DNA of 64,000 nucleotides from Allobosea sp. TND4EK4 (GTDB taxonomy: Bacteria; Pseudomonadota; Alphaproteobacteria; Rhizobiales; Beijerinckiaceae), in assembly GCF_900156025.1 (NCBI RefSeq), contig NZ_FTMO01000005.1:186001-250000 (forward strand), given 5' to 3'. Of the stretch, positions 1 to 56,043 are shown piece by piece (the stretch's first letter is position 1; each line of letters begins with the position of its first letter). A program made the position numbers and the translations under genes. The notes under the pieces are model-generated. The model searched no databases and was not told the DNA's origin. It worked only from the letters and a program-made list of their open reading frames with translations.

Positions 1-756
1 GAGCGGCTCGGAGACCCGCGACGAGAACTGGCCTTTTCCGTCGATGCTGGGGCCTTCCGTCCACCGGCCCTCCGGGATCGAGCCGTCCCGCATGTGGCCG
101 AAATAGGCGTAGGAAAATTCCTGCTTCTCCTGATCCTGCGGGAAGCTGTTCGGGATCGGCAGGCTGGCGGCTCCGCCCATATCCTCGATGGCAGCCAGCC
201 ATTGCTGCTGATGCATGGTGTCGCGCGCGATCAGGAAGGAGAGCATGTCCTTCATCCCCGCATCGTCGGTCATGTTGTAGAGCCTGACGGCAAGGACACG
301 GCCGGACGACTCTGCCGCGACATTGGCATACATATCAGCCGCGAGATTGCCGCTGGCATAAACATGCGAGGCGTCGAAGGGGACGCCGTTCGCATCGGCC
401 GGCATGGCCGCCAGACCGGTCGAGAGCAGATGGCGGAAATCCATGCCGTTGATGACGGAGCCGGCGACCATGTTGGCCGACGCCTCCTCCTGCATCGACA
501 GCGGCGCCCCTTCGAGATTGAGGGCCACGGCGGTCGCGAGCATCTCGATATGGCCGAGTTCCTCGGTCGCGGTGTTGAGCAGCAGGTCTCGGTATTTGGC
601 CGGCCCTCGTGCGCCGAAGGCCTGGAACATGTACTGCATGCAGACGCGGATCTCGCCCTCGACGCCGCCGATCGCCTGTTGGAGGGCCCGGGCGAAGACC
701 GGATCCGGCTTGTCGACCCGCACGGGATATTGCAGACGGCCATCGGCGTAGAACAT
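1..756 (-). CDS. Manganese (non-haem) catalase, C-terminus cut by window edge
   Basis: Dimanganese catalase, which disproportionates hydrogen peroxide. 252 codons are visible without a stop before the window edge, so the C-terminus is missing. Translating the minus strand from ATG 756 gives all five expected manganese ligands at the family numbering: Glu35 (in VEGEIR), Glu66 and His69 (in EELGHIEM), Glu149 (in AAESSG) and His182 (in DTMHQQQW). The start fits the family (MFYADGRLQYPVRVDKPDP) and has an AGAGG-type ribosome site just upstream. An EcfG-like promoter (GGAAC-N17-GGTT) lies 54 bp upstream at 810-835. The neighbours are DUF4142 and YflT-like stress proteins, which fits a general-stress role. 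Confidence 0.93.
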   Translation of the reverse strand, partial: MFYADGRLQYPVRVDKPDPVFARALQQAIGGVEGEIRVCMQYMFQAFGARGPAKYRDLLLNTATEELGHIEMLATAVALNLEGAPLSMQEEASANMVAGSVINGMDFRHLLSTGLAAMPADANGVPFDASHVYASGNLAADMYANVAAESSGRVLAVRLYNMTDDAGMKDMLSFLIARDTMHQQQWLAAIEDMGGAASLPIPNSFPQDQEKQEFSYAYFGHMRDGSIPEGRWTEGPSIDGKGQFSSRVSEPL

Positions 757-809: not shown

Positions 810-835
810 AACCCGACGCCATGGTCGCCCGTTCC
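810..835 (-). promoter_or_regulatory. EcfG-like general-stress promoter of the Mn catalase
   Basis: On the minus strand GGAAC (835-831), 17 bases, then GGTT (813-810). This is one mismatch from the alphaproteobacterial EcfG consensus GGAAC-N16/17-CGTT. It ends 54 bp before the catalase ATG. Inference from motif and position only. Confidence 0.45.
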
Positions 836-3223: not shown

Positions 3224-3249
3224 GGAACGCCGGGCCCAGCCCGGCGTTC
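3224..3249 (+). promoter_or_regulatory. EcfG promoter inside a perfect inverted repeat
   Basis: GGAAC (3224-3228), 16 bases, CGTT (3245-3248): an exact EcfG consensus, 42 bp before ATG 3291. The same bases form an 11-bp inverted repeat (GAACGCCGGGC at 3225-3235, GCCCGGCGTTC at 3239-3249), so a hairpin or repressor site is an alternative reading. Confidence 0.55.
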
Positions 3250-3290: not shown

Positions 3291-3581
3291 ATGAAGCGCC
3301 TGATCCTGCTTGCCGCCTTCCTGCTCCAAACGGGAATCGCCACCGCGCAGATCCGCGCCTCCACCGTCGATCGGCCCTGTGAGGCGAGCCGGCGAGATGT
3401 CGCCCGCAATGGCGCGATCGTGTTGGGCACCGGCGGCTATACCTATGACCGCTTCGTCGCCGACCGCCGCTTCTGCGAGCGCGACGAGTTTACCGAGCCG
3501 GCCTTCGTTCCCAGCCGGGATAGCCAATCCTGCTTCATCGGTTATCGCTGCCGGACGTCCAACCCGCTCTGGGATCGGTGA
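3291..3581 (+). CDS. Small secreted protein of unknown function
   Basis: 96 residues: a signal peptide (MKRLILLAAFLLQTGIATAQ), then a mature part with four cysteines (CEASRRD, FCERDE, QSCFIGYRC) that could form disulphides. GGAGG lies 8 bases before the ATG. An exact EcfG-type promoter is 42 bp upstream, so it is probably induced in the general stress response. Its last 47 bases overlap the 3' end of the convergent amidase gene. I do not recognise the family. Confidence 0.7.
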   Translation: MKRLILLAAFLLQTGIATAQIRASTVDRPCEASRRDVARNGAIVLGTGGYTYDRFVADRRFCERDEFTEPAFVPSRDSQSCFIGYRCRTSNPLWDR

Positions 3582-5055
3582 GCCGGTCGACCGGGTTCGC
3601 ATGCGTCCCAGGACGCGGCCTCGCAGCAGCGTCGTCGCTTCCTCCAGCGTGCCGGAGGCCTGGCAGCAAGGCCGGATCGGCGGCCCGGCACACCCCCATC
3701 GTCTGAAGCGCGAAAGCAGCCTTCAGGCACAGATCTTCCCGCCAGGGCGGCGCGATGAGCTGGACGCCGATCGGCAGCCCGGCGCCTTGCACGGGGACCG
3801 CCGCCACGGGCAGCCCCACGCAGGATATCGGCTGCGTGAACAGCCCGAGGCTCGGGCGCAGCGGAAGCGTCTCGCCCCTCACCTCGAGGGATTTCTGGCC
3901 GATCAGCGGCGCGACACAAGGCGTCGCGGGGGCGACGATGAGGTCGACCTCGGCGAAGTGACGCATCATCTCCTCATGGAACCAGCGCCGTGCACGCTGG
4001 GCCTGCACATACCAGCCGGCCGGCAGCAACGCGCCCGCCAGGAAGCGGTCGCGCGTTTCCGGATCGAAGTCATCGGCGCGCGAGCGCAGGCGCGGCAGAT
4101 GGAAGCTGGAGCTTTCCGCGTTGGTGATCAGGAAGGCGGCCGCCCGCGCGATGGGGACCCCATCGATGTCGATGATGCGCTTCGCGCCAAGCGCGCCGGC
4201 GACCTGCGCGACGGCAGCCCGAGCCTCCGGCATGCCGTCGGTGGCGAAGTATCCGCCTGCCACGCCGATGCGCAGACCGCCGATCCCGTCGCGCAGCCGA
4301 AGCACGGTCGGCTCCGCCGTCCTCTGTGCGCAGGCCGGATCGCCGGCATCGGGCCCCTGCATCAGGTCATAGGCGAGCGCAAGATCGGTCACGTCCCGTG
4401 CCAGGGGCCCGAGATGGTCGAGGGAATCGCAGAAGGGGAACGAGCGGGTGCGCGGCAAGCGGCCATAGGTCGGCTTGAGGCCGAAGATGCCGCAGAGCGA
4501 GGCCGGCACCCGGATCGAGCCGTTGGTGTCCGAGCCGAGCGTGATCGGGCTCAGGCCCGCGGCGGTCGCCGAGCCGGAGCCGGACGAGGAGCCGCCCGAC
4601 ATCCGCGCCGGGTCATGCGGATTGCGGCAAGCACCGTCATGGGCGTTTTCGCCCGTGAAATCATAGGCATATTCGCCCATGTTGAGCCCGCCGAGCAGCA
4701 CCGCTCCCGCCGCGCTCAGCCGCTCGACCAGCACGGCGTCGCGCGTCGCTGGCGCCCGCTCCCGATTGATCATCGAGCCGGCCCGGGTCGGCAGGCCGGC
4801 AATGTCGAAGAGGTTCTTGGCGGCGAAGGGGGCGCCTGCCAGCGGCCCGAGCGGCCGGCCGGCACCGCGGTCCTTGTCGATGCTGCGCGCCTGCTCGCGC
4901 GCCCGCGCGGCGGTGATGTCGGTGAAGGCTGCTAGACGGGGGTTCAGCGTGGCGATGCGGCCGAGGAATGCCTCTGTCACGGCTTCCGCGTTTGCTTCCC
5001 CCTGCGCGACCCGCCGCGCGAGAACATGCGCGGGAGCAAAGATGTCGATGCTCAT
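3535..5055 (-). CDS. AtzE/HpxY-like amidase
   Basis: Amidase-signature hydrolase of 506 residues with the Ser-cisSer-Lys triad visible: Lys80 (GAPFAAKNLF), the GGSSSGSGS loop (residues 154-162) and the nucleophile Ser180 (GSDTNGSIRVPAS). It is closest in character to AtzE (1-carboxybiuret hydrolase) and HpxY of oxalurate catabolism, because the preceding gene encodes the small DUF4089 partner these enzymes need. The two genes overlap by ATGA, suggesting translational coupling. The C-terminus runs about 40 residues past the usual end and into the convergent small gene at 3291. The exact substrate is inferred from context. Confidence 0.85.
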   Translation of the reverse strand: MSIDIFAPAHVLARRVAQGEANAEAVTEAFLGRIATLNPRLAAFTDITAARAREQARSIDKDRGAGRPLGPLAGAPFAAKNLFDIAGLPTRAGSMINRERAPATRDAVLVERLSAAGAVLLGGLNMGEYAYDFTGENAHDGACRNPHDPARMSGGSSSGSGSATAAGLSPITLGSDTNGSIRVPASLCGIFGLKPTYGRLPRTRSFPFCDSLDHLGPLARDVTDLALAYDLMQGPDAGDPACAQRTAEPTVLRLRDGIGGLRIGVAGGYFATDGMPEARAAVAQVAGALGAKRIIDIDGVPIARAAAFLITNAESSSFHLPRLRSRADDFDPETRDRFLAGALLPAGWYVQAQRARRWFHEEMMRHFAEVDLIVAPATPCVAPLIGQKSLEVRGETLPLRPSLGLFTQPISCVGLPVAAVPVQGAGLPIGVQLIAPPWREDLCLKAAFALQTMGVCRAADPALLPGLRHAGGSDDAAARPRPGTHANPVDRLTDPRAGWTSGSDNR

Positions 5056-5270
5056 GCGGTTTCGCTCCCGCCGTTGCCCGGCCGGAACACCGGCGCAAGG
5101 CTGAACTCGGCATCGTCCAGCGGACAGGTCGCCACGATGCGCGCCATGCGCTCGGCGATGCCGAGGAACTGCAGCACGACCGGGCGCTGCTCCGCCGTGA
5201 TGGTGAGGCCGATCACCGGCGCCATCGCGTCGAGATGACGCTCGGCATCGAAGGGAGGGCTTCCGCTCAT
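5052..5270 (-). CDS. AtzG/HpxX-like DUF4089 small subunit
   Basis: 72 residues (MSGSPPFDAERHLDAMAPVI, then RPVVLQFLGIAERMARIV and LAPVFRPG). This is the DUF4089 helical protein that partners AtzE-type amidases in a complex derived from the GatCA transamidosome architecture. Its start overlaps the stop of the cysteine hydrolase (ATGA, 5267-5270) and its stop overlaps the amidase start (ATGA, 5052-5055). The three genes are therefore one tightly coupled operon. Confidence 0.82.
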   Translation of the reverse strand: MSGSPPFDAERHLDAMAPVIGLTITAEQRPVVLQFLGIAERMARIVATCPLDDAEFSLAPVFRPGNGGSETA

Positions 5271-5992
5271 GCGACTGTCTCCTGCTCGGTTGGAGCGGCG
5301 CCTGCATCGGCCGACAGTGCCGCCAGAACCTGGCTCGTGGTGGATACCCATCCGAAAATGCCGCCCTGCGCCGCGATCATCCGCAGGCCGACGGCATGGA
5401 ACTCGGGGAAATAGGACGCGCAGGCATCGCCCGGCACGAGGCAGCGATAGCCGCGGTCATTGGCTTCGCGAACGGTGGTGTGAACGCAGACCTCGGTGGT
5501 GACCCCGGCGACGATCAGCGCCTCGATGCCGCGATTGCGCAGCATCAAGTCGAGGTCGGTCTGGTAGAAGGCGCCCTTCCCGGGCTTGTCGATCACCGGC
5601 TCGCCGGCCAGCGGCGACAGCTCCGGGATGATCTCGTGGCCCGGCTCGCCCCGCACCAGGATGCGGCCCATCGGCCCGCAGGCGCCGATCCGCTTCTCCG
5701 GCGGACCTCGCTGCACCTTGTTGGGCGGAGCGTCGGCCAGGTCCGGTCGATGCCCCTCGCGCGTATGGATGACCAGCAGCCCCGCCGCTCGGGCGCTCTC
5801 CAGCAACGCGCGGCAGGGCCCGATGGCGCTCCGCAGCAGCGAAACATCGTTCCCGAGCGCCGCCCCGAAGCCACCCGGCTCCAGGAAATCCCGCTGCATG
5901 TCGATGACGAGCAGCGCAGCGCGCGCGACATCGATCGCGAACGGAGAAGGATCAGCCGGAATTTCCGCGCAAGGCACCGCTCCACGCTCCAT
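5267..5992 (-). CDS. BiuH-like isochorismatase-family cysteine hydrolase
   Basis: About 241 residues from ATG 5992. The catalytic triad of the family is visible: Asp31 (LLVIDMQRDF), Lys in VIDKPGKGAF, and Cys in TTEVCVHTT. The insert THTREGHRPDLADAPPNK-type region (HTREGHRPDLADAP) and ILVRGEPGHEIIPEL are shared with biuret hydrolase BiuH and with guanylurea hydrolase. It probably hydrolyses a ureido amide such as biuret to allophanate. First gene of the leftward operon. The ribosome site is weak, so the start could be slightly upstream. Confidence 0.8.
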   Translation of the reverse strand: MERGAVPCAEIPADPSPFAIDVARAALLVIDMQRDFLEPGGFGAALGNDVSLLRSAIGPCRALLESARAAGLLVIHTREGHRPDLADAPPNKVQRGPPEKRIGACGPMGRILVRGEPGHEIIPELSPLAGEPVIDKPGKGAFYQTDLDLMLRNRGIEALIVAGVTTEVCVHTTVREANDRGYRCLVPGDACASYFPEFHAVGLRMIAAQGGIFGWVSTTSQVLAALSADAGAAPTEQETVA

Positions 5993-6178
5993 CGACGACG
6001 AACGGAACAGGCTTTGCAAAGCATGTGCCCGCCGGGGTGCCGAGGGGCGAGCCCGCTCTGACACCGGCGCGGGCGCGAAATGGGCCGAGGATCGTGACGA
6101 AACTGGACGCAACTCCATCCGAAGAGACGGGCAACGAGACGAAGAGGTGGCTCGCCCGCTGCCCGGCAAGCTCACCGG

Positions 6179-6200
6179 CTTGCATCTCTTTGTATGCAAG
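6179..6200. promoter_or_regulatory. Candidate GntR operator between biuH-like gene and atzF
   Basis: A perfect inverted repeat CTTGCAT (6179-6185), 8 bases, ATGCAAG (6194-6200), in the 295-bp divergent intergenic region 5993-6287. It also contains TTGTATGCAA (6190-6199), close to the TTGTATACAA-like sites of FCD-type GntR regulators. The island encodes such a regulator at 8066-8779. ATGCAAG recurs upstream of the transporter operon at 14854-14860. Confidence 0.45.
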
Positions 6201-6287
6201 ACGCGCAATGCGCCCATTTTTTAATCAGAAAGCCGACCCCGCAGCCCAAAGCGCGGTCGCCTCTTGGACATCAGGTGGAGGTTCCCC

Positions 6288-8093
6288 GTGCCGACCCTAG
6301 CCAGCATCCTCGCCGACCATCTCACGGGCGGGGCACAGATCGCGGACACTGTCTCGGCCTGCTATGCGCGGCTGCGAGCTCATGGCGACGAGGCGATCTT
6401 CATCGCGTTGCGCCCGGAAGCCGAGGTCGTGGCAGAAGCCGAGCGCCTTCAGGCGGAAGGCCCGCGCGGCCGCAGGCTGTGGGGCGTGCCCATCGCGGTG
6501 AAGGACAATATCGACGTCGCCGGCCTGCCGACGACCGCAGCCTGTCCGGCCTTCGCATACAGCCCGGAGCAGGATGCCAGCGCGGTGGCGCGGCTGAGAG
6601 CGCAGGGCGCCATCGTCATCGGCAAGACCAATCTCGACCAGTTCGCCACCGGTCTCAACGGGACACGATCGCCCTATGGCACGCCGCGCAACGCCATGCG
6701 CGGCGATCTCGTCCCCGGTGGGTCGAGTTCCGGCTCGGCGAGCGCGGTCGCCGCCGGCATCGTCCCGGTCGCGCTCGGCACCGACACGGCGGGCTCCGGC
6801 CGCGTCCCCGCCGGGCTGCAGAACATCGTCGGGCTGAAGCCGAGCGTGGGGCTTGTGCCGAGCGCCGGCCTGGTGCCCGCCTGCCGGACGCTGGACTGCA
6901 TCTCCGTTTTCGGCCTGACGGTCGAGGACGCCTGGGCCGTCCTCGACGTGATGTCCGGGCTCGACCCGGCGGATCCGTTCTCCCGGGGCCTTCCGCTTGG
7001 ACGCCCGGGCGCCGCGCCCCCCGCGATACGGCTCGGCGCGCCGCGGCCGGCGGATCGCGATTTCGCGGGAGACCCCGCCGCGAAGGCGAGTTTCGAAGCG
7101 GCGCTCGAACGCGCTCAGAGGTTGGGCGCCGAAATCGTCACGCTCGACTTCACGCCCTTCTATGAGACAGCCCGGCTTCTCTATGACGGCCCGTGGGTGG
7201 CTGAACGCTGGCTCGCCATCCGCGATCTCTACGAGCGCGAGCCGGATGCGATCCTCCCGGTGATTCGCCAGGTGATCGCTGGCCGTCCCCTGCCGGATGC
7301 CGCCGCCGCCTTTGCCGCCCGGTATCGGCTCGCCGAACTTGCGCTTGCCGCCAAGGCGACGCTCAAGAGCGTCGACGCGCTGATGGTCCCCACGGCGCCG
7401 CGCCCGGTGACCCTCGCCGAAATGGCCGCCGATCCTGTCGGCGCCAATTCCATGCTCGGCCGCTATACCAATTTCGTTAACCTGCTCGACCTGTGCGCCC
7501 TCGCTTTGCCGGCGACCCTCGCCCACGATGGCACGGCGGCGGGGGTGACGCTGATCGCACCCGCAGGCCACGACGCCGCCCTCGCCGCTTTCGGCCGCGC
7601 CTTCCAGGCGGCAAGCGGGTTGCCGCTCGGCGCGACGGAGCTGTCCTTGCCCCCGCAGGCAGATTGGCCGCCATCCGGCACGCCCGGCACGATCGAGATC
7701 GCGGTGGTCGGCGCACATCTTTCGGGCATGCCGCTCAATGGCGAGCTGACCTCCCTCGGCGGCTGCTTCGTCCGCGCGACGACCACGACCGCCGATTACC
7801 ACCTCTACGCCCTGCCGGGTGGCCCGCCGATGCGGCCCGGCCTCGTCCGCACCGCCGAACGTGGCGGCGAGATCGCCGTCGAGATCTGGTCTCTGCCCCC
7901 CGAAGGCTTCGGTCGCTTCGTCGCGGGAATCCCCGCTCCTCTCGGGATCGGCACGCTTGCATTGGCGGACGGGACGCGGGTGAAAGGCTTCCTCTGCGAG
8001 CAGATCGGCACGCAAGACGCGCGGGACATCACCGGTTTCGGTGGCTGGCGCGCCTTTGTCGCGGCTCAATCGGCTGCGCGTGCCTCGGCGTAG
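6288..8093 (+). CDS. atzF: Allophanate hydrolase
   Basis: 601 residues. The N-terminal amidase domain has Lys72 (PIAVKDNIDVAG), GGSSSGSAS (144-152) and nucleophile Ser170 (GTDTAGSGRVPAG). The C-terminal domain from about residue 470 (IEIAVVGAHLSGMPLNGEL...TGFGGWRAFV) is the extra domain of true allophanate hydrolases (AtzF/DUR1-type). It releases ammonia and CO2 from allophanate, the final step for biuret and cyanuric acid nitrogen. I chose GTG 6288 because GGTGGAGG lies 6-7 bases upstream; the TTG at 6264 has no such site. It is divergent from the BiuH-like operon. Its last 28 bases overlap the convergent GntR gene. Confidence 0.9.
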   Translation: MPTLASILADHLTGGAQIADTVSACYARLRAHGDEAIFIALRPEAEVVAEAERLQAEGPRGRRLWGVPIAVKDNIDVAGLPTTAACPAFAYSPEQDASAVARLRAQGAIVIGKTNLDQFATGLNGTRSPYGTPRNAMRGDLVPGGSSSGSASAVAAGIVPVALGTDTAGSGRVPAGLQNIVGLKPSVGLVPSAGLVPACRTLDCISVFGLTVEDAWAVLDVMSGLDPADPFSRGLPLGRPGAAPPAIRLGAPRPADRDFAGDPAAKASFEAALERAQRLGAEIVTLDFTPFYETARLLYDGPWVAERWLAIRDLYEREPDAILPVIRQVIAGRPLPDAAAAFAARYRLAELALAAKATLKSVDALMVPTAPRPVTLAEMAADPVGANSMLGRYTNFVNLLDLCALALPATLAHDGTAAGVTLIAPAGHDAALAAFGRAFQAASGLPLGATELSLPPQADWPPSGTPGTIEIAVVGAHLSGMPLNGELTSLGGCFVRATTTTADYHLYALPGGPPMRPGLVRTAERGGEIAVEIWSLPPEGFGRFVAGIPAPLGIGTLALADGTRVKGFLCEQIGTQDARDITGFGGWRAFVAAQSAARASA

Positions 8094-8779
8094 CTGCTGA
8101 ACGCGTCCCTCACCAAGCCGATATGCGCGTGCATGGCCTCGGCTGCGCCCAGCCGGTCCCCGCGCAGGATCGCCTGCACGATCACATCGTGCTCCTGCCA
8201 CGAACCGCCGAGCCGCCCCGTCGTCCGGAACTGGGCCCGGCGGAACGGGGCGACGCGCCGGCGCGTCATCAGCGTCATCTCGGCGAGATAGCCATTATGC
8301 GTGCCGGCATAGATGGCACCGTGAAAGGCCTCGTTGCGTTCGTGATAGCGCAGCGGGTCGCCCCGATGGACCAGCGCCCGCAACTCCTGGTGCAGCTGCT
8401 CCAGCCCGCGCCGCTCCGCCGCCGTCATGTTGCGGGCGGAAAGCCCGGCGCAGAGGGCCTCGAGCTCCGCCATCGCCTCGAACATGTCATGGAGTTGGCG
8501 CGGCGCCGGCAAAGCGACGAGCGCGCTGCGATGTGGCCTCACCTCGACGAGGCCCGAAGCCGCGAGCTGGCGGATGGCCTCGCGGACCGGGGTACGCGAG
8601 ACGCCGAAACGGCGCGCCAGCTCCTGCTCGTCCAGCGGCTGGCCCGGAGCCAGCAGGCCGGAGACGATGTCGTCGGCGAGCTGAAGGCGCAGGGCTTCCG
8701 TACGGGTGGTGGCTCTGGCCTCGCGATCCGCTGCGGCCGGTCCGTGAGACGACGCGTTCTCTTTCGGCAAAAGGCTCAC
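8066..8779 (-). CDS. GntR family regulator, FCD subfamily
   Basis: 237 residues. The winged-helix domain is at about residues 28-95 (LADDIVSGLLAPGQPLDEQE, LARRFGVSRTPVREAIRQL). An FCD all-helical sensor follows, with acidic and histidine residues for metal or acid binding (HERNEAFHGAIYAGTHNGYL). It is the last gene of the leftward transporter operon, 39 bp after the AtzH-like gene, and convergent with atzF. It is the likely local regulator of the island; the effector is unknown. Confidence 0.88.
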   Translation of the reverse strand: MSLLPKENASSHGPAAADREARATTRTEALRLQLADDIVSGLLAPGQPLDEQELARRFGVSRTPVREAIRQLAASGLVEVRPHRSALVALPAPRQLHDMFEAMAELEALCAGLSARNMTAAERRGLEQLHQELRALVHRGDPLRYHERNEAFHGAIYAGTHNGYLAEMTLMTRRRVAPFRRAQFRTTGRLGGSWQEHDVIVQAILRGDRLGAAEAMHAHIGLVRDAFSSYAEARAAD

Positions 8780-8818
8780 CCTGAGCTCGGTCCGGCCGTG
8801 CGCCGGTCTGTGCCGCCG

Positions 8819-9202
8819 CTATGTCTGCGGGATGATGCTGACATGGGCCGCAACGACCCGCCAGCCCTCCGGGAAGCGCACCCAGGACTGGCTCTGCCGC
8901 CCGATCTTGCCAGGCGCGCTTGCGCGCTCGAACAGCGTGTTGGCAGTGGCGAAATCGTCTCCGTAGCTGGTGATGACAGTCCGCTGTAGCGACCGCTCCA
9001 GCCCGGCCGATGGCCGCGCTGCACGAAAGGCTGCGATCTCGTCGTAGCCGTAGAGATTCTCCGTGGCCCCATAGCGCAGCGTCTCCGGCGCCTGCCGGAA
9101 CAGGCGATCGAGCGTGGCGACGTCGTTGCTTGTCAGCGCCGTCTCGTATTCGGCAAAGGCGGCCTCGACTTCAGCCAAAATGGCGGGATCGTTGATCTTC
9201 AT
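8819..9202 (-). CDS. AtzH/HpxZ-like DUF3225 protein
   Basis: 127 residues of the SnoaL/NTF2-like DUF3225 family ([50 protein letters not shown]). HpxZ is encoded with HpxX and HpxY in oxalurate catabolism. AtzH acts beside AtzE and AtzF in cyanuric acid degradation, where I recall it being assigned to handling 1,3-dicarboxyurea; I cannot verify that here. Its presence with DUF4089, AtzE-like and AtzF proteins makes a carboxy-urea type pathway the best reading. It lies 22 bp downstream of the transporter ATPase gene. Confidence 0.78.
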
Positions 9203-9224
9203 GCTGCTCTGCTTCGGTAACGGC

Positions 9225-10925
9225 TCAGGCGGGCGGATGTGGAATCGCCGTCAGCAACTCCTTGGTGTACGCGGCCTTGGGCGCGCCGAGCACCTCTTCG
9301 GCGGAGCCCTGTTCGACGATCTGGCCACTGCGCATGACGATGACCCGGTCGCAGAGCAGGCGGACCACATTGAGATCGTGCGAGACGAAGATGTAGCTCA
9401 TGCCGAGCCGTTGCTTCAGATCATCCAGCAGGTTCAGCACCACCGCCTGCACCGAGACGTCGAGCGCCGCGGTCGGCTCGTCGAGGATGACGAGATCGGG
9501 ATCGAGCGCGATCGCCCGCGCGATGCCGACGCGCGCTTTCTGCCCGCCCGAGAGCTGGTGCGGGAACCGGTCGAGAAGCTCGACCGGCAGCCCGACCAGT
9601 TGCGCCAGTTCCTCGCAGCGAGCGCGCAACGCCGCGCCGCCGCGGATCGCGCCCATGCGCAGGATCGGGTCGAGGATTGCCCGCTCAGCCGTAAAGCGGG
9701 GATTGAGGCTGTCGGTCGGGTCCTGGAACACCATCTGGATGCGTCGCCGGAAGGGCGAAGCGGCGAAGCGCCTGGCGGGAATCGCCCCAATATCCTCGCC
9801 GTCGAACAGGATGCGCCCGCTCGTGGGATCGAGCAGCCGGTTGAGCATCATCGACGTCGTCGATTTTCCGCAGCCGGATTCGCCGACGAGGCCGAGGGTC
9901 TCGCCCCGCTCGACGCTGAAGCCGATGCCGTCCACCGCCCGGAACGGCTCGGCCGGCTTCTCCGCCTTTCCGGCGAGCCGAGCGAGAAAGCTGCCCTGCG
10001 CGGGCCGCGGATATTCCTTCACCAGGTTCTCGACCAGGAGAAGCGGCCCGGCACCCGGCGCACGGGCCGGCGCAGAAGCGGCAGCCGTGCCGGACGCCGG
10101 AGCGCCTTCTGGCAGAAGATCGTGCAGGCTCATGCCGACCCGCGGCGTCGCCTTCATCAGCTTGCGTGTGTACGGGTGCTGCGGATGGCGGAATATCTCG
10201 GCGGCCCCCGCCGTCTCGACCACGCGCCCCTTCTCCATCACCACCACCCGGTCGCAATAGGCGGCGGCGAGGCCGAGGTCATGGGTGATCAGGATCGTCG
10301 ACATCCCGCGCTCGCGCGTCAGCTCGACGATGAGATCCATCACCGCCTTCTGCGTCGTGACGTCGAGCCCCGTCGTCGGCTCGTCGGCGATCAGCAGCTG
10401 CGGCTGGCAGGCGAGCGCGAGCGCGATGACGACGCGCTGGCACATGCCGCCCGAGAGCTCGAAGGGATAGGCGTCATAGCGCTCCTGCGGCCGCGCGATC
10501 CGGACCTTCTCCAGCGCCTCGATCGCCTTCTCGCGCGCCGTCGCCCGGGTGGCCCGCACATGCTGGAGCAGCACGTCCTCGATCTGCCTGCCGACCTTGC
10601 GAATCGGGTTCAGCGCCGCACGCGGATTCTGGAAGATCATCGAGATCTCGCGCCCGCGAATGTCGCGCATCTGCGCCTCGCTGGCGCCAACGAGATCGAT
10701 GCCGGAGAAGCTGATCGAGCCGTCTGCGACCCTGCCCGCCCGATCAAGGATGCGCACCACCGCATAGGAAGTCACGGACTTGCCCGAGCCCGACTCGCCG
10801 ACGATGGCAACCGTCTCGCCCTTGCCGACGCTGATGTCGATCGCCTTCACCGCCTGCACGGTACCCCGGCGGGTGGCGAACTCGACCGTGAGGTTGCGGA
10901 TGTCGAGGAGCGGGGGCGCATTCAT
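9225..10925 (-). CDS. Fused dipeptide-type ABC transporter ATPase (two NBDs)
   Basis: 566 residues with two nucleotide-binding domains. The first has Walker A GESGSGKS (43-50), signature LSGGM and Walker B LLIADEPT. The second has [13 protein letters not shown] and LVILDEPT. Each is followed by the oligopeptide-transporter extension ([11 protein letters not shown] in the first, [11 protein letters not shown] in the second). It energises the two permeases encoded upstream. This is a DppD-DppF style fusion like GsiA. Confidence 0.93.
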
Positions 10926-10941
10926 GGACGGGCGCTCCCCT

Positions 10942-11066
10942 TGTCATTCCGGGGCTCGCGCAGCGAGAATCCGGAACTCGCGACCGGGTGAGAGTCGACG
11001 ACACAATCGGTCTTGCGCCCGCACGTGGATTCCGGGCTCCCTGCTTCGCAGGGCCCCGGAGTGACA
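10942..11066. repeat. Palindromic intergenic repeat, copy 1
   Basis: 125 bp with near-perfect terminal inverted repeats: TGTCATTCCGGGGC at the left and GCCCCGGAGTGACA at the right. It fills the gap between the transporter ATPase and permease genes. It looks like the same class of element as the copies at 13035, 28618, 42812 and 46108. Confidence 0.6.
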
Positions 11067-11085
11067 GTGGCGGTTCCACTCATCC

Positions 11086-11985
11086 TCAATTCCTCCGCTG
11101 CGGGTCGACGAGATCGCGCACGCCGTCGCCGAGCAGGTTGAAGCAGAAGACGGCGGTCATCAGCGCGAGCCCGGGGAAGAAGGCAACCCACCATTCGCCC
11201 GAGACGATGAAGCTCGCCCCTTCGGCGACCATGATGCCCCATTCAGGCGTCGGAGGGCGCACGCCGAGCCCGATGAAGGAGAGGCCTGCCGCGTTGAGGA
11301 TGGCGTAGCCCATCGTCAGCGACATCTGCACGGCCATGATCGGCATGATGTTCGGCACGATCTGCGTCAGCAGCAGCCGCCATTCCGAATTGCCCGAGAG
11401 CCGCGCCGCCTGCACGAATCCGGCCTCGCGCCGCACATTCGCCTCGGCCCGCGCGACGCGGGCATAGAGCGGGAAATTGATGATCGCGGTCGCGATGACG
11501 ATGTTGGTGACGCTGTTGCCGAGCGCCGCGACGATGCCCATCGCCAGCACGAAGAGCGGAAAGGCCATGATCGTGTCGGCAATGCGCCCGACCAACGTAT
11601 CGACCCAGCCGCCGAAGAAGCCGGCCATGACTCCGGCGAGTCCACCGAGCAGGAAGACCAGGGCGACAGAGGCGACGGCGATCGAGAAATCCAGCCGCGT
11701 CGCCGCCACCACCCGGCTGAAGATGTCGCGGCCGAGTTGGTCGGTGCCGAACCAGTGGGCTGCGCTCGGACCCTGCAGGGCGGAGTTCGTATTGGAGGCC
11801 AGCGGATCATAGGGCACCAGCCAGGGGCCGAAGATCGCGGCGAGCAGGATCAAGGCGAACAGCCCGAAGGCAAAGCCGGTGACGGGGTTTTCGGCGACGA
11901 CGTGCCGGGCATGCGCGAGAAGCGATGTCGACGGCGGCGCCTCGAAGCGCAGGGCGGCGGGCTCGATCTTGCTGATCTCGTTCAT
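11086..11985 (-). CDS. ABC transporter permease (DppC type)
   Basis: 299-residue inner-membrane permease with an N-terminal TM segment (GFAFGLFALILLAAIFGPWL), the OppC-type start (PLASNTNSALQGPSAAHWFG, TDQLGRDIFSR) and the EAA loop (RAEANVRREAGFVQAARLSG). It pairs with the DppB-type permease, whose stop lies 3 bp from this start. An intergenic palindromic repeat separates it from the ATPase. Confidence 0.92.
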   Translation of the reverse strand: MNEISKIEPAALRFEAPPSTSLLAHARHVVAENPVTGFAFGLFALILLAAIFGPWLVPYDPLASNTNSALQGPSAAHWFGTDQLGRDIFSRVVAATRLDFSIAVASVALVFLLGGLAGVMAGFFGGWVDTLVGRIADTIMAFPLFVLAMGIVAALGNSVTNIVIATAIINFPLYARVARAEANVRREAGFVQAARLSGNSEWRLLLTQIVPNIMPIMAVQMSLTMGYAILNAAGLSFIGLGVRPPTPEWGIMVAEGASFIVSGEWWVAFFPGLALMTAVFCFNLLGDGVRDLVDPQRRN

Positions 11986-11988
11986 CGC

Positions 11989-13002
11989 TCAGCCCTCCAT
12001 CCGGACGCGGGGGTCGATCACGCCGTAGAGGATGTCGATCAGCAGGTTCAGCGCGACATAGAGGATCGCCATCGTCAGGACGAAGCCCTGGATCGGCGCA
12101 TAATCGGAGGCCAGCAGCGCCTCGACCGCATAGGAGCCGACGCCGGGCCAGGCGAAGACCTTCTCGACCAGGACATTGGCGCCGAGCAGAAAGGAGAACA
12201 CCATGCCGAGCGTCGTCACCACGGGCAGCATGGCGTTGCGGAAGGCATAGGTGCCGATGACCTTGCGGCTGGAGAGGCCGCTGGCACGCGCGGTGCGGAC
12301 GAAATCCGCGCCGAGCACCGCGAGCATGGAAGCGCGCGTCATGCGGGTGATCGGCGCCAGCGAGAAGATCGCCAGCGTCACGGCCGGGAGAAGGATTTGC
12401 GAAAGCGCCGCCCGGAAGGTCTCGCCATCGCCTGCGACCAGGCTGTCGACGAGCAGCAGGCCGGTGACCCGTGGCGGCTCCGAGAGAAAGGCGTCGAGCC
12501 GCCCCAGCGGAGCCGGCGCCCAGCCCAGAATGAAGTAGAAGACATAGACCAGCAGCAGGCCGGTGAAGAACACCGGCAGCGACACGCCGGCGGTGGCGAC
12601 GATGCGACAGAGATGGTCGATCCACGATCCCTGCCGCACCGCCGCCAGCACGCCGAGCGGCAGCGCGATTGCCATGGAAATCAGAAGCCCGAGCAAGGTC
12701 AGCTCGGCCGAGGCCGGCAGCCGCTGCGCCAGATCGGCCGTCACGGCCTGCCCGGTCGTCAGCGAGGTGCCCAGATCGCCCTTCACCAGCGCTGAGACAT
12801 AGGAAACGAACTGCACCGGCAGGGGCTGGTCCAGCCCGAGCTTGCTGCGGATCTCGGCGATGGCCTGCGGCGTCGCCGCCGGGCCGGCGAAATAGGCCGC
12901 CGTATCGCCCGGCAGCACCCGGGTCAGCAGGAAGGTGACGATGATGACTCCGATCACCGAGGGGATCGTGGTCTTCAGGCGCTGTCCGATCAGGCTGAGC
13001 AT
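11989..13002 (-). CDS. ABC transporter permease (DppB type)
   Basis: 337 residues, six predicted TM helices. A classic DppB N-terminus (IGQRLKTTIPSVIGVIIVTF, LTRVLPGDTA) and the EAA-like loop (RASMLAVLGADFVRTARASG). It forms the channel with the downstream permease. A palindromic repeat lies between it and the solute-binding protein gene. Confidence 0.92.
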   Translation of the reverse strand: MLSLIGQRLKTTIPSVIGVIIVTFLLTRVLPGDTAAYFAGPAATPQAIAEIRSKLGLDQPLPVQFVSYVSALVKGDLGTSLTTGQAVTADLAQRLPASAELTLLGLLISMAIALPLGVLAAVRQGSWIDHLCRIVATAGVSLPVFFTGLLLVYVFYFILGWAPAPLGRLDAFLSEPPRVTGLLLVDSLVAGDGETFRAALSQILLPAVTLAIFSLAPITRMTRASMLAVLGADFVRTARASGLSSRKVIGTYAFRNAMLPVVTTLGMVFSFLLGANVLVEKVFAWPGVGSYAVEALLASDYAPIQGFVLTMAILYVALNLLIDILYGVIDPRVRMEG

Positions 13003-13034
13003 GGCTGGTTCTGCTCCGTGGCATCCGCCTCGCC

Positions 13035-13110
13035 GTCATTCTCGGGCGCAGCGGAGCGAAGACCCGAGAATCTCGGGCAGGAGATGCTCGGGTCTTCGCC
13101 CGAGCATGAG
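13035..13110. repeat. Palindromic intergenic repeat, copy 2
   Basis: 76 bp starting GTCATTCTCGGGC and ending GCCCGAGCATGAG, with internal GACCCGAGAATCTCGGG and GATGCTCGGGTC. It lies between the solute-binding protein and permease genes of the transporter operon, so it is transcribed within the operon. Confidence 0.65.
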
Positions 13111-13120
13111 GTTCCTCGGC

Positions 13121-14719
13121 TCACGCCCCCTTGGTCAGGTAGCGGAAGTCCGGCTCGCGGCAGGGCTGGAACTGATAGCCGCCGATCGACTTCTGCATCG
13201 CGACATCATGGGTCGGCTGCGAGATCGGGATCATCGGCACCTCGCGCTCGACCAGCGAGACGAAGTCGACGACGTATTTCTCGTAGGCCGCCTTGTCAGT
13301 GGTGAAGCGCGCGGCGTCGATCAGCTTGTCCAGATCGGGGTTCTGGTAGTTGGCGATGTTGAAGATCGAATTATTGCCGTGCATCGTCCAAAACAGGTAG
13401 TAATCCGGATAGTCCAGCCAGCCCGCGAAGCGGTTCAGGGTCATCGGATTGGTCTTCTTGGCGATCTCGGTGCGGAAGTTCGCGCCGGGTACCTTGGTGA
13501 TCTCGACCTCGATGCCGATCGAGGCCAGCGCCTCCTTGATCAGCACGGACATCGGCTCCGCCACAGTCGCATTGCCGGCGTCGAACTGCAGCGTCGTCGA
13601 GAAGCCGCCGCCGGCCGCGGCGACGAGCGCCTTGGCCTTCTCGACATTGGTCTTGTAGGGGAACGGTGTCGGCCAGGCCGGCTTCGGCGTCTCGGGGCCG
13701 CCGGACATGTCGACGCCGCGGCCGAAGAGCGAGGCCTGCAGCATCTTCTCATAGGGCAGCACCCAGGCCACCGCCTGCCGCAGGCGAACATCCTTGAAGG
13801 GGCCGACCTGGCTGTTGAGATACAGTCCCCAGACGCCATTGGGGATCGGCACGCCGACGACGTTGATCTTGCCGCCATCGGCCAGATCCTTGAAATCCTT
13901 CGGCGGCAGGCCGTAGGAGATGTCGGCGTCGCCGCGCTCGATCAGGGCCCGCCGGGTCGAGGGCGAGGCGATGTCGCGGGCGATGACGCGGCGCAGCTTC
14001 GGCAGCGGGCCGCAGGCCCAGTCATCGTTGCGGACATAGATCGTCTCGACGCCGGGCTTCCAGCTCTCGACCTTGAAGGCACCAGACCCGGCGACATTGT
14101 TTTTCAGCCACTCCTTGGCGAGCGGATCGCCGCCGCTGTTCTTGATCGCAAGTTCGGAGTCGAAGACGAAGGGAATGGTGACCGCCAGGTTCGGCATGGT
14201 CAGCTTGTCCTTGCGGATGAAGTCGATCCGAAAGGTCTTGTCGTCGACGACGACGAACTGCTCCGGCTTTTCCAGGGAGCCCGCATTCATCTGGGTGGTG
14301 GCAAAGCCGCCGATCGTCACCGCGCGGTCGAGCGACCATTTGACGTCCTTGGCCGTCACCTTCCGACCGGAGTGGAACTTGGCGTCCCGCAGCTTGAAGG
14401 TGCAGCTCATCCCGTCCGAGGCGATCTGCCAGCTCTCCGCCAGCTCCCCTTCCAGTTCGCCCATCGAGACCTGGTTGCCACCACCGCCCGGAATTGGGAC
14501 CGGCTTGAAGCGCAGCAGCCGATCATAGCAGTTGAGCGCCACGCCATTGACCGGCTGAGAGGAGCCGATGCCCTGCATGTCGAGGCTGTTCGGCCCGTAT
14601 TCCTGCACCAGCAGAAGCGTCTCGCTCCGGCTCGGCGCTTGCGCGCCGGCGCGCCCACTCATCAGAAATGGCGCAGAAAGACCTCCGGCAAGGGCGGCGC
14701 GACGCGTGATCCCCATCAT
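13121..14719 (-). CDS. ABC transporter solute-binding protein, family 5 (peptide type)
   Basis: 532 residues with a twin-arginine style signal (GITRRAALAGGLSAPFLMSG). It has the SBP_bac_5 pattern: LAESWQIASDGMSCTFKLRD, KFHSGRKVTAKDVKWSLDRA and FKDVRLRQAVAWVLPYEKML. First gene of the leftward operon SBP-permease-permease-ATPase-atzH-gntR. Its linkage to amidohydrolases suggests uptake of a small amide or ureido compound rather than peptides; the ligand is not readable from sequence. Two consecutive ATGs are present; GGGAGAA favours the second, at 14716. Confidence 0.92.
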   Translation of the reverse strand: MMGITRRAALAGGLSAPFLMSGRAGAQAPSRSETLLLVQEYGPNSLDMQGIGSSQPVNGVALNCYDRLLRFKPVPIPGGGGNQVSMGELEGELAESWQIASDGMSCTFKLRDAKFHSGRKVTAKDVKWSLDRAVTIGGFATTQMNAGSLEKPEQFVVVDDKTFRIDFIRKDKLTMPNLAVTIPFVFDSELAIKNSGGDPLAKEWLKNNVAGSGAFKVESWKPGVETIYVRNDDWACGPLPKLRRVIARDIASPSTRRALIERGDADISYGLPPKDFKDLADGGKINVVGVPIPNGVWGLYLNSQVGPFKDVRLRQAVAWVLPYEKMLQASLFGRGVDMSGGPETPKPAWPTPFPYKTNVEKAKALVAAAGGGFSTTLQFDAGNATVAEPMSVLIKEALASIGIEVEITKVPGANFRTEIAKKTNPMTLNRFAGWLDYPDYYLFWTMHGNNSIFNIANYQNPDLDKLIDAARFTTDKAAYEKYVVDFVSLVEREVPMIPISQPTHDVAMQKSIGGYQFQPCREPDFRYLTKGA

Positions 14720-14976: not shown

Positions 14977-15001
14977 GGAACAGGAGGACCTGCATCGCGT
15001 T
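14977..15001 (+). promoter_or_regulatory. EcfG general-stress promoter
   Basis: GGAAC (14977-14981), 16 bases, CGTT (14998-15001): exact consensus, ending 35 bp before ATG 15037. Confidence 0.6.
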
Positions 15002-15036: not shown

Positions 15037-15573
15037 ATGCGCCGCCTTCTTCTCGCCGCTGCCGCAGCGGCGTCGCTTGCCTTCGCCATCGCACCACAGG
15101 CTTCCGCCCAGCAGATCGACGCCGCCAGCGGCATGCCGATCGGAGGGGGCGTCCGACCCGGCGGCGGAGGCTGGGGCGCGGGGGCTGCCATCAACCGCGG
15201 GCCGGGCTGGAACAGACCTGCCGGCTACTACGGACGCGGCAACGCCTGGAGGGGCTCAGGCTGGCGTGGCGGCGGCGGCTGGAGAGGCTATCCGCGCTAT
15301 CGGCACGGCCGCTATCCCTATCGGGGCGTTGGAGCAGGCCTGGCGGCGGCCGCGACGATCGGAGCGCTCGCGACCTATCCGCCCTATGCCGTCTACCCTG
15401 ATTACGGACCAGCCTACCCGGTCTATCCGGCTTATCAGCCGGAGCCCGTGGTTGCAGGCGATCATTGCAGCACTCCGGTCAAGATGTGCACGCTTTACCG
15501 GCCGGCCCAGCTCGGCGTGGGTTGCTCCTGCAAGGTCGCCGGCGGCCGCGCGCGCGGCACGGTCGTGCCCTGA
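15037..15573 (+). CDS. Secreted Gly/Tyr/Arg-rich small protein
   Basis: 178 residues. The signal peptide MRRLLLAAAAAASLAFAIAP ends near ASAQ. A Gly/Trp/Arg-rich stretch follows (residues about 45-90, GWRGGGGWRGYPRYRHGRYP), then a hydrophobic segment (GVGAGLAAAATIGALA), a Tyr/Pro-rich segment (YPPYAVYPDYGPAYPVYPAY) and a C-terminal part with Cys residues (DHCSTPVKMCTLY, VGCSCKVAGG). GGAGGG precedes the ATG. An exact EcfG promoter 35 bp upstream suggests stress induction. Function unknown; this composition is common in exported stress-linked proteins of the order. Confidence 0.75.
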   Translation: MRRLLLAAAAAASLAFAIAPQASAQQIDAASGMPIGGGVRPGGGGWGAGAAINRGPGWNRPAGYYGRGNAWRGSGWRGGGGWRGYPRYRHGRYPYRGVGAGLAAAATIGALATYPPYAVYPDYGPAYPVYPAYQPEPVVAGDHCSTPVKMCTLYRPAQLGVGCSCKVAGGRARGTVVP

Positions 15574-24405: not shown

Positions 24406-25254
24406 CTACTGCGGAACGGCCGGAGCGCTCTTGATCACATCGATGCGGACATCCCCCAGCCCGGCGGCGATCCCGTCAGCGATCCTCAGCGCCAGGCAGC
24501 GATAGCCGCCATCGACGAGATGCAACCCGTCCATCCCGACGAGATCCTCGGGGCTGAACTGGCTGGACCGCGCCCAGCCTTTCATCATCGCATAGCGCGG
24601 AAACAGCGCCACATTCTGGTCATGCGCGATGCGCGCGAGGATGCCGCGATAATCGTCGTAATGCGGGTATCGGCCCGCGCGCGGAAGCCAGGGAAGGTCC
24701 ATGAGGATCATGTCGGTGCCGGCATCGCGAGCCTTGGCGATGCCCTTGCGCAGGATCTTGCCGAGCTTGTCCTCGCCAATGTCGCGGATCGCGTCGTTGA
24801 CGACGGTCTGCCAGATCACGAGCGCCGGCTTCTCGTCGAACACGTCGGCATCCATGCGCAGGAGCATGTCGTAGGCCGACTGCCCGCCCACGCCCTTGTT
24901 GAGGACACGGACATCGGCCCGCGGCAGGCGGCGGCGTAGCTCGCTCTGGAGCACTGCGGGATAGCTTTTGTCCTCGGTGCTGGCGCCGGAGCCGGCCGTC
25001 GTCGAGGAACCGAGCGCGACGATGACGAGGCGGCCGGTTTCCTGCAGCGCGCGCCGCGCCGCCGGCAGCGCCGGCTGGAAGGGTTGCTGCGCCATCCCCG
25101 CACGGCAGCGCGCATCGGCGCCCGCGAACGGCGCGGCCGGCGCCGCTGCGGCTCCGCCACTCAGCGCGGCGAGAGTGAGGACGAGGGCGCAGCCGAGACC
25201 GGCGCGGGAGCGGCCCGCGCGGCGCCTGCGCGACTGGTGACCGTGCGATACCAC
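24406..25254 (-). CDS. SGNH/GDSL-family hydrolase
   Basis: 282 residues from GTG 25254. An N-terminal export signal (GCALVLTLAALSGGAAAAP), then the SGNH blocks: VIVALGSSTTAGSGAS (nucleophile Ser), NKGVGGQSAYDM (Gly), VIWQTVVND (Asn) and MDGLHLVDGGY (Asp-x-x-His). Probably an esterase or deacylase of a periplasmic polymer. The start overlaps the end of opgC by 94 bp; AGGGG upstream and the signal peptide support it over internal ATGs. Coupled to OpgC, it may remove or move acyl groups on periplasmic glucans (inference). Confidence 0.82.
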   Translation of the reverse strand: MVSHGHQSRRRRAGRSRAGLGCALVLTLAALSGGAAAAPAAPFAGADARCRAGMAQQPFQPALPAARRALQETGRLVIVALGSSTTAGSGASTEDKSYPAVLQSELRRRLPRADVRVLNKGVGGQSAYDMLLRMDADVFDEKPALVIWQTVVNDAIRDIGEDKLGKILRKGIAKARDAGTDMILMDLPWLPRAGRYPHYDDYRGILARIAHDQNVALFPRYAMMKGWARSSQFSPEDLVGMDGLHLVDGGYRCLALRIADGIAAGLGDVRIDVIKSAPAVPQ

Positions 25255-26384
25255 GACAGAAAAACCCCTAGCCCGGCAGAGACTGTAACGCCGCCGGCGC
25301 ACACCGCCAACTGGACGGTCAGATCGAAGGATGCCTCGGCGAGCAGCACCTGGCCGATCACCGCGAGGACGATGCCGACGCAGAAGACATGCAGGGAATT
25401 CTGCCCCGTCTTGGCCAGGATGCGCCCCAGCGCCGAGCGGGAAAGCGCATCGCCGGCCGGCAGCCATCGTACGGCAAGCCAAGTCAGAGCGCCGACATGG
25501 CCGAGCCGGCTCCAGGCGAGGTTCGTCTTGTCGGAACCGAGCTGGACCGAGTCGAACCAGTCGTTGAAAGCGGCGATACCGGTGGGATTGCTCAGCGTCA
25601 CCTTCGCATAGCAGGAGAAGACGATGAATCCGATGGCGAGCGCATCCAGCCAGCGCAGCCGGGGGGCTGCGAGGCCGAGCTGGTTCGAGCGGCCGAGAAC
25701 CACGCCCATCACGAAGACGACCTGCCACGCGAACGGATTGAAGAACCACGTTCCGCCCGAATTCGGAAGGTTGAGATCGAGCGCCAGCGCCCCCTGCCAG
25801 ATCGCGAGCGAGAGGCCCAGCGCCAGCACGGGGCTGAACCGGACAGCGTAGTAGATGGCCGGAAACAACGCGAGCAGCACGATGTAAAGCGGCAGGATGT
25901 CGAGATAGGACGGCTGATAGGTCAGCGTCAGCGCGCCGAGCAGCGCCTCGGCCGTATCGCGGAAGAAGGGCTGGACGTTGATCAACTCGATATAGAGCGG
26001 GTTCTGCGTATGCGTCACCGCGGCAGCGATCACCCCGCAGACGATGATGAAAACGGCGATATGCGCGATGTAGAGCGTCCACAGCCGCGCTCCGAGCTTC
26101 AGCATCGCGATCGGCAGCCCTCGCCGCTCGATCAGCCCGCCATAGGCGAGCGTCGCGGAGACGCCTGCCAGCAGCACGAAGATGTCGGCAGCGTCCGAGA
26201 ACCCGAAATTATGCGGCGTATAGGCCGCAACCACGTTTCCCGGCATATGGTTGATGAAGATGATCAGCAGGCACAAGCCGCGGATGACGTCGATGCGGGC
26301 GTCACGGGCCGGCTTGTCGGTCACGGCGCCTGGCCCGGCGGAGCCGGAGAGAATGAAGCGCCGAAATTGCGGAGCGACCGACAC
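25161..26384 (-). CDS. opgC: OpgC domain acyltransferase
   Basis: 407-residue membrane protein of about ten TM helices. It starts RDARIDVIRGLCLLIIFINH with the OpgC/acyltransferase-3-like Asp-x-x-Arg-Gly pattern and continues YTPHNFGFSDAADIFVLLAG. OpgC succinylates osmoregulated periplasmic glucans. The GTG start at 26384 has GAGGAC nine bases upstream. An exact EcfG promoter lies 32 bp upstream, suggesting stress control of glucan modification. It overlaps the SGNH hydrolase gene. Confidence 0.85.
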   Translation of the reverse strand: MSVAPQFRRFILSGSAGPGAVTDKPARDARIDVIRGLCLLIIFINHMPGNVVAAYTPHNFGFSDAADIFVLLAGVSATLAYGGLIERRGLPIAMLKLGARLWTLYIAHIAVFIIVCGVIAAAVTHTQNPLYIELINVQPFFRDTAEALLGALTLTYQPSYLDILPLYIVLLALFPAIYYAVRFSPVLALGLSLAIWQGALALDLNLPNSGGTWFFNPFAWQVVFVMGVVLGRSNQLGLAAPRLRWLDALAIGFIVFSCYAKVTLSNPTGIAAFNDWFDSVQLGSDKTNLAWSRLGHVGALTWLAVRWLPAGDALSRSALGRILAKTGQNSLHVFCVGIVLAVIGQVLLAEASFDLTVQLAVCAGGVTVSAGLGVFLSWYRTVTSRAGAARAAPAPVSAAPSSSLSPR

Positions 26385-26415: not shown

Positions 26416-26440
26416 AACGTCGGGTCGGGACTCCTGTTCC
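26416..26440 (-). promoter_or_regulatory. EcfG general-stress promoter of opgC
   Basis: Minus strand GGAAC (26440-26436), 16 bases, CGTT (26419-26416): exact consensus, -10 ending about 31 bp before the GTG start of opgC. Confidence 0.6.
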
Positions 26441-55703: not shown

Positions 55704-55728
55704 GGAACGCGGAAGCCCATCCGGCGTT
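55704..55728 (+). promoter_or_regulatory. EcfG general-stress promoter
   Basis: GGAAC (55704-55708), 16 bases, CGTT (55725-55728): exact consensus, 57 bp before ATG 55786, just after tRNA-Leu. Confidence 0.6.
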
Positions 55729-55785: not shown

Positions 55786-56043
55786 ATGATCAAATCATCC
55801 TTGACCAGCCTGGCGGGCGTGTTCGTGGCACGCGAAGTCGGGAAAGGGGCCGTGCCCGCAGCCTTGTCCGTGCCGCTGAGCCTGCTCATCGCGCGGCTGC
55901 CGGGGCCCGTCCTTCTGCTCGGCGCCGCCGGCTACGGCGCCTACCGCCTCGCCGCAGCGTCCCGCGCCTCGCGGAAGCCCTCGCAGACGGCAGGCGAGAA
56001 GCCGCGCAGGCGTGCAGCCCGCACATCGATCGCCAAGAGCTGA
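55786..56043 (+). CDS. Small basic membrane protein, likely stress-induced
   Basis: 85 residues: a hydrophobic middle (VPLSLLIARLPGPVLLLGAA) and a strongly basic, Ser/Thr-rich tail (KPRRRAARTSIAKS). Unknown family. The exact EcfG promoter upstream predicts general-stress induction. Confidence 0.65.
   Translation: MIKSSLTSLAGVFVAREVGKGAVPAALSVPLSLLIARLPGPVLLLGAAGYGAYRLAAASRASRKPSQTAGEKPRRRAARTSIAKS

Follow-up and report, generated by a model that had tools for sequence, protein, structure and literature searches.

Within a 64,000-nucleotide stretch of a Bosea genome (hereafter the window), we found four exact copies of the motif GGAAC-N16-CGTT. In all likelihood these copies, and probably a variant copy ahead of a manganese catalase gene, are the -35 and -10 elements at which RNA polymerase starts when bound to EcfG, the sigma factor of the general stress response. 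We favour this reading because the genome encodes the EcfG switch genes, the motif is enriched and correctly oriented across the whole genome, the two boxes are kept in relatives while the spacer between them drifts, and the genes behind the sites resemble a general stress gene set. The four sites are very probably members of a genome-wide general stress regulon of about 60 sites. A regulon of this type is already known as the alphaproteobacterial general stress response, and the most interesting new member suggested here is a gene pair predicted to encode an OpgC-family acyltransferase and an SGNH hydrolase.

A pattern scan of both strands for GGAAC-N16/17-CGTT returned exactly four matches in the window, all with a spacer of 16, none overlapping a called gene and each oriented toward a start codon. 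Site 1 (3224..3248, plus strand) is the predicted promoter of a gene at 3291..3581 (plus), which starts 42 bases from the end of the site; its product of 96 aa has a signal-peptide-like start and matches in 57 of the 67 genomes of the genus set (the window's own included). Site 2 (14977..15001, plus) stands 35 bases before the gene at 15037..15573 (plus), its predicted target, which encodes a Gly/Tyr-rich protein of 178 aa, again with a signal-peptide-like start and with matches in 44/67 genus genomes. Site 3 (26416..26440, minus) is the predicted promoter of the opgC-SGNH pair and lies 31 bases from the GTG start of opgC at 26384 (25161..26384, minus). The product, an OpgC-family membrane acyltransferase, carries the OpgC_C domain (PF10129, E 1.1e-103), and 65 bp downstream of opgC follows the gene of an SGNH/GDSL-like hydrolase (24406..25095, minus; PF25182 and PF13472). 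Site 4 (55704..55728, plus) would serve the gene of an 85-aa predicted membrane protein at 55786..56043 (plus), 57 bases away. Pfam and NCBIfam held no family for the small proteins encoded at 3291, 15037 and 55786. When the -10 box was widened to GGTT, the only extra match in the window was GGAAC-N17-GGTT at 810..835 (minus, read 835-810), the predicted promoter of a manganese catalase gene (1..756, minus, extending past the window edge; PF05067, E 2.3e-85) that begins 53 bases away. A preliminary description of this DNA had placed four exact sites at these coordinates and strands, called them intergenic, correctly oriented and 32-58 bp from a start codon, and named a catalase with a near match; all of this was recovered, the distances being about 31-57 bases by our measure. 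An exact EcfG-type site (L170:1298-1322) also occurs, at a distance of about 105 bp, ahead of a second manganese catalase gene of this genome.

In this family of regulatory systems it is established that NepR holds EcfG in the absence of stress; under stress, HWE kinases lead to phosphorylation of PhyR, and PhyR~P takes NepR and frees EcfG. A genome-wide search found one PhyR and one NepR. The nepR-ecfG genes are divergent from phyR, with an HWE/HisKA_2 histidine kinase at the same locus, and five exact motifs are spread across 6.9 kb around it. The region upstream of nepR itself holds only a TGTT variant, GGAAC-N16-TGTT, 105 bp away; TGTT is among the frequent variant boxes in Sphingopyxis (PMC7083833). 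The exact motif is the EcfG motif reported for R. etli (PMC3892343) and for Sphingopyxis (PMC7083833), and the consensus published for Methylobacterium is GAAC-N16,17-C/GGTT (PMC4814048), which the catalase site also fits. Box sequences and spacing, intergenic orientation and the presence of EcfG, NepR and PhyR thus all agree with EcfG promoters.

One alternative is that these are real promoters but belong to a different ECF sigma factor that also recognises a GGAAC -35 box, for example the EcfG-like factor at G000:C33:182256; we consider it very unlikely. The GGAAC -35 box is common to many ECF families, and five ECF-like factors besides EcfG were found in the genome, one of them 41% identical to EcfG over 146 residues. 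Against this, CGTT or C/GGTT at a spacing of 16 or 17 is the EcfG -10 box in the three published systems; moreover, sites are concentrated around phyR, and the predicted gene set is of the general stress type. The 41%-identical factor (L330, G000:C33:182223-182738) lies about 3.3 kb before the window; it is a possible EcfG paralog and might share promoters with EcfG.

In related genomes we searched 150 bp upstream of orthologs for GGAAC-N16/17-[CG]GTT. The boxes were present in 16/29 orthologs for site 1 (2/29 if CGTT alone is allowed, the rest being GGTT), in 21/29 for site 2 (20/29 with CGTT alone), in 19/37 Boseaceae loci for the opgC site (17/37) and in 6/29 homologs for site 4 (5/29), the weakest of the four. 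Conservation of the boxes therefore holds for sites 1-3 in part of their orthologs, at site 1 mostly as GGTT; no motif was found within 150 bp in 13/29, 8/29, 18/37 and 23/29 loci for site 1, site 2, opgC and site 4, respectively. Ten further site-4 homologs have the motif at 215-221 bp upstream. For sites 1, 2 and 4 the sets are the 29 relatives with a returned locus, a subset of all matches; where an alignment was incomplete, the start had in some cases to be extrapolated. The catalase site is absent upstream of its single close ortholog (88 percent); among manganese catalase loci of other genomes, 10/19 have a site within 300 bp, or 12/21 in the genus when the genome's own two are included.

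As a control, 359 permuted single box pairs gave a mean of 0.07-0.09 loci per set, a figure to be doubled for a fair comparison since each permuted pair uses one 4-mer where [CG]GTT allows two. The highest single controls reached 7 (opgC), 11 (site 2), 9 (site 1) and 3 (site 4) loci; most of these top controls are one-base slides of the real motif, the exception being the pair of GACAG and CGTT, which reached its 9 loci at site 1. When the spacing was varied from 10 to 23, there were 44 CGTT locus matches at spacings 16 and 17 together versus three at the remaining twelve. The 16-base spacers themselves were only 0.29-0.34 identical to the window copy for sites 1-3 (n=14, 20 and 12), where about 0.28 is expected at random for the given composition by our own arithmetic; for site 4 the value was 0.48, from the four spacers available. 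Spacers that are near random between boxes that are kept indicate that the boxes are held while the rest drifts.

The same comparison bears on a second alternative, that the letters at 3224-3248 form a hairpin behind a tRNA-Thr gene and are no promoter, which we hold to be very unlikely. There is indeed a perfect 10-bp inverted repeat, AACGCCGGGC-CCA-GCCCGGCGTT, at 3226-3248, about 120 bp after tRNA-Thr. No T-run follows it, however, and the spacers of the site-1 orthologs that keep the two boxes (14 of the 16 compared) are only 0.34 identical, so the inverted repeat is not the conserved feature; a perfect hairpin in that role was rejected on this ground.

The genes behind sites 1 and 2, each with its own predicted EcfG-type promoter, are 11.5 kb apart in the window. 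In 16 related genomes (G002, G012, G018, G022, G023, G024, G027, G030, G040, G042, G044, G052, G055, G056, G060 and G063) their matches share a strand and are separated by 80-365 bases; the site-2 promoter motif was found within 350 bp in 15 of these 16, and that of site 1 in 10 of the 12 with a site-1 locus available. The stretch between the two genes in the window (3535-14716) is a biuret/allophanate-type cluster that encodes an amidase and AtzG-like partner, an isochorismatase-fold hydrolase, an allophanate hydrolase, a GntR regulator, an AtzH-like protein and an oligopeptide-type ABC transporter.

The preliminary description had proposed a scan of the whole genome for the motif, and promoter placement in such a scan, together with conservation, makes the strong case against chance. 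We scanned the 4.72-Mb genome (60 contigs) for the exact motif with the reversed pattern as control, counting palindromic sites that read both ways on both strands. There were 94 exact sites versus 79 for the control, of which two were left out for having less than 600 bp of flank near a contig end, leaving 77. Intergenic positions were taken by 74/94 motif sites versus 16/77 control sites, and 57/94 versus 4/77 were intergenic with a start on the same strand no more than 150 bp downstream (Fisher P 2.6e-15). At 10-80 bp before a same-strand start the counts were 42 and 1. For 40 of the 74 motif sites between genes, the only start faced is on the same strand, and for 7 it is on the opposite strand; for the 16 intergenic control sites these numbers are 3 and 5. 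Genes were called with our own codon-usage script, which missed the gene at 15037, so that site 2 at 14977 is absent from the 57. The other 37 of the 94 exact sites are not promoter-placed (20 overlap called genes and 17 have no start within 150 bp), and the motif alone is therefore insufficient to call a promoter; about one third of the exact matches are perhaps chance, or serve genes missed by the caller.

Taken by itself, the window shows a moderate excess, as dinucleotide shuffles gave a mean of 0.58 matches, in line with the earlier estimate of about one chance match per 64 kb, which was a fair one. Sites are about five times as dense here as in the genome on average (Poisson P 0.008), a post hoc figure for a window picked for its density. 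That all four sites are chance matches of a nine-base motif, an idea that could draw on the 3 of 100 shuffles with at least four matches and on a genome total little above that of the reversed control, is barely credible, and we rejected it on promoter placement (57/94 versus 4/77) and on the keeping of the boxes at spacing 16/17 with diverged spacers, which speaks against chance for sites 1-3, site 4 being the weakest. The preliminary description had also grouped the sites as a scattered stress regulon in the window. Its identification of EcfG promoters gained support from the switch genes, the genome-wide placement, the boxes in orthologs and the gene set; its grouping did not stand, as the window has no unit of its own and about 60 promoter-placed sites are spread over 4.7 Mb. 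A window-local regulon was accordingly discarded.

To describe the gene content of the predicted EcfG regulon, we compared 53 of its targets from beyond the window with Pfam. They include Ku, manganese catalase, a starch synthase, a branching enzyme and a CBM48 alpha-amylase, the last of which we read as GlgX-like, together with two PRC-barrel proteins, DUF892, DUF3597, DUF1269, DUF883_C, DUF2934 and DUF2188. Also among them are GCS2, a zinc metallopeptidase, two YkuD transpeptidases and a pyridoxamine-oxidase-like protein; 19/53 targets had no Pfam family. The glycogen-type enzymes (starch synthase, branching enzyme and CBM48 alpha-amylase) lie at G000:C21:124-127 kb (L014 and L017), a region with several EcfG-type sites, one of which reads on both strands between divergent genes.

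We then considered the opgC-SGNH pair. In 37/37 Boseaceae loci, one of them truncated at the end of its contig, the SGNH hydrolase gene stands directly downstream of opgC, and the two genes are probably carried on one transcript. When mapped onto a tree built from 46 OpgC proteins, the motif was present within 200 bp in all 13 rows of the well-supported clade of the window protein (the window included), in 7/9 rows of its sister group and in two further rows; on this tree its distribution needs four changes, versus 15.7 for shuffled labels. An exact motif within 200 bp was missing from 16/37 Boseaceae opgC loci, 7 of these 16 having a variant with one mismatch, and outside Boseaceae it was present at 4/41 opgC loci (L083, L085, L097 and L099). 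The simplest reading of these sequences is that the opgC motif arose inside Bosea and was then lost in places or gained a second time. Most of the top-scoring relatives of OpgC carry the name Bosea, and a phmmer search of OpgC against the Protein Data Bank gave no match at E 0.01. The MdoG/OpgG glucan-synthesis family is present in 67/67 genus genomes, with four matches in the window's own.

Taken together, the predicted chain of events would run as follows. Stress would act through HWE kinases, PhyR~P would take NepR and EcfG would be freed; EcfG with RNA polymerase would then bind and read the GGAAC and CGTT boxes, with transcription beginning just downstream of CGTT. The genes induced would be those of the three small exported or membrane proteins, of the manganese catalase and of the opgC-SGNH pair, whose products may alter acyl substituents of periplasmic glucans or of another envelope glycan. 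We propose by inference that osmotic and general stress reach opgC via PhyR-EcfG in the Bosea clade. A bolder version, tentative and in our judgement doubtful, is that the general stress response took over periplasmic glucan tailoring in one Bosea clade, EcfG driving OpgC as the writer and an SGNH esterase as the eraser of acyl groups. If this were true, PhyR signalling would set the charge of the periplasm, a role that EnvZ-OmpR and Rcs play in Dickeya, and the similar opgC site in the Inquilinus group (L083, L085 and L097) would be a separate gain.

A literature search found no paper joining OpgC with EcfG, and among the matches listed, titles and abstract starts gave no link between opgC or periplasmic glucan and a sigma factor, PhyR, EcfG, RpoE2 or the general stress response; the word "glucan" is absent from the main texts of PMC3892343 and PMC7083833. 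Nor did we find a general-stress study of Bosea, judged by titles and abstract starts. What may be newly suggested, and is modestly new, is envelope-sugar remodelling under stress, via an opgC that in one Bosea clade lies behind an EcfG-type promoter. The analysis also lists, from sequence, probable EcfG targets in a genus with no general-stress study among the listings searched, and it points to conserved small exported proteins and to a gene pair for envelope-glycan modification as directly testable stress outputs.

To conclude, the known systems nearest to the predicted Bosea regulon are EcfG regulons. The -35 and -10 motif and its spacing are as in the EcfG (sigma-EcfG, RpoE2 or SigT) regulons of Methylobacterium, Rhizobium, Sphingomonas and Sphingopyxis, and the phyR-nepR-ecfG-kinase layout of EcfG general stress response systems is the same in the Bosea genome. 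The EcfG table for Sphingomonas melonis lists Ku, GlgX, PRC-barrel, DUF3597 and general stress protein 26 (PMC6599016), and the overlap with our targets comprises Ku, PRC-barrel, DUF3597, the pyridoxamine-oxidase-like general stress protein and the glycogen debranching enzyme. In contrast to these regulons, that of Bosea is predicted from sequence, and it adds the opgC-SGNH pair and small-protein families that have no general stress link in the literature searched. For opgC itself the nearest comparison is Dickeya dadantii, in which an opgC-type acyltransferase gene is likewise under stress- or osmolarity-linked control. There, expression of opgC at high osmolarity is under EnvZ-OmpR and RcsCDB (PMC4726272), whereas in Bosea the gene has a predicted EcfG promoter and an adjacent SGNH hydrolase gene.
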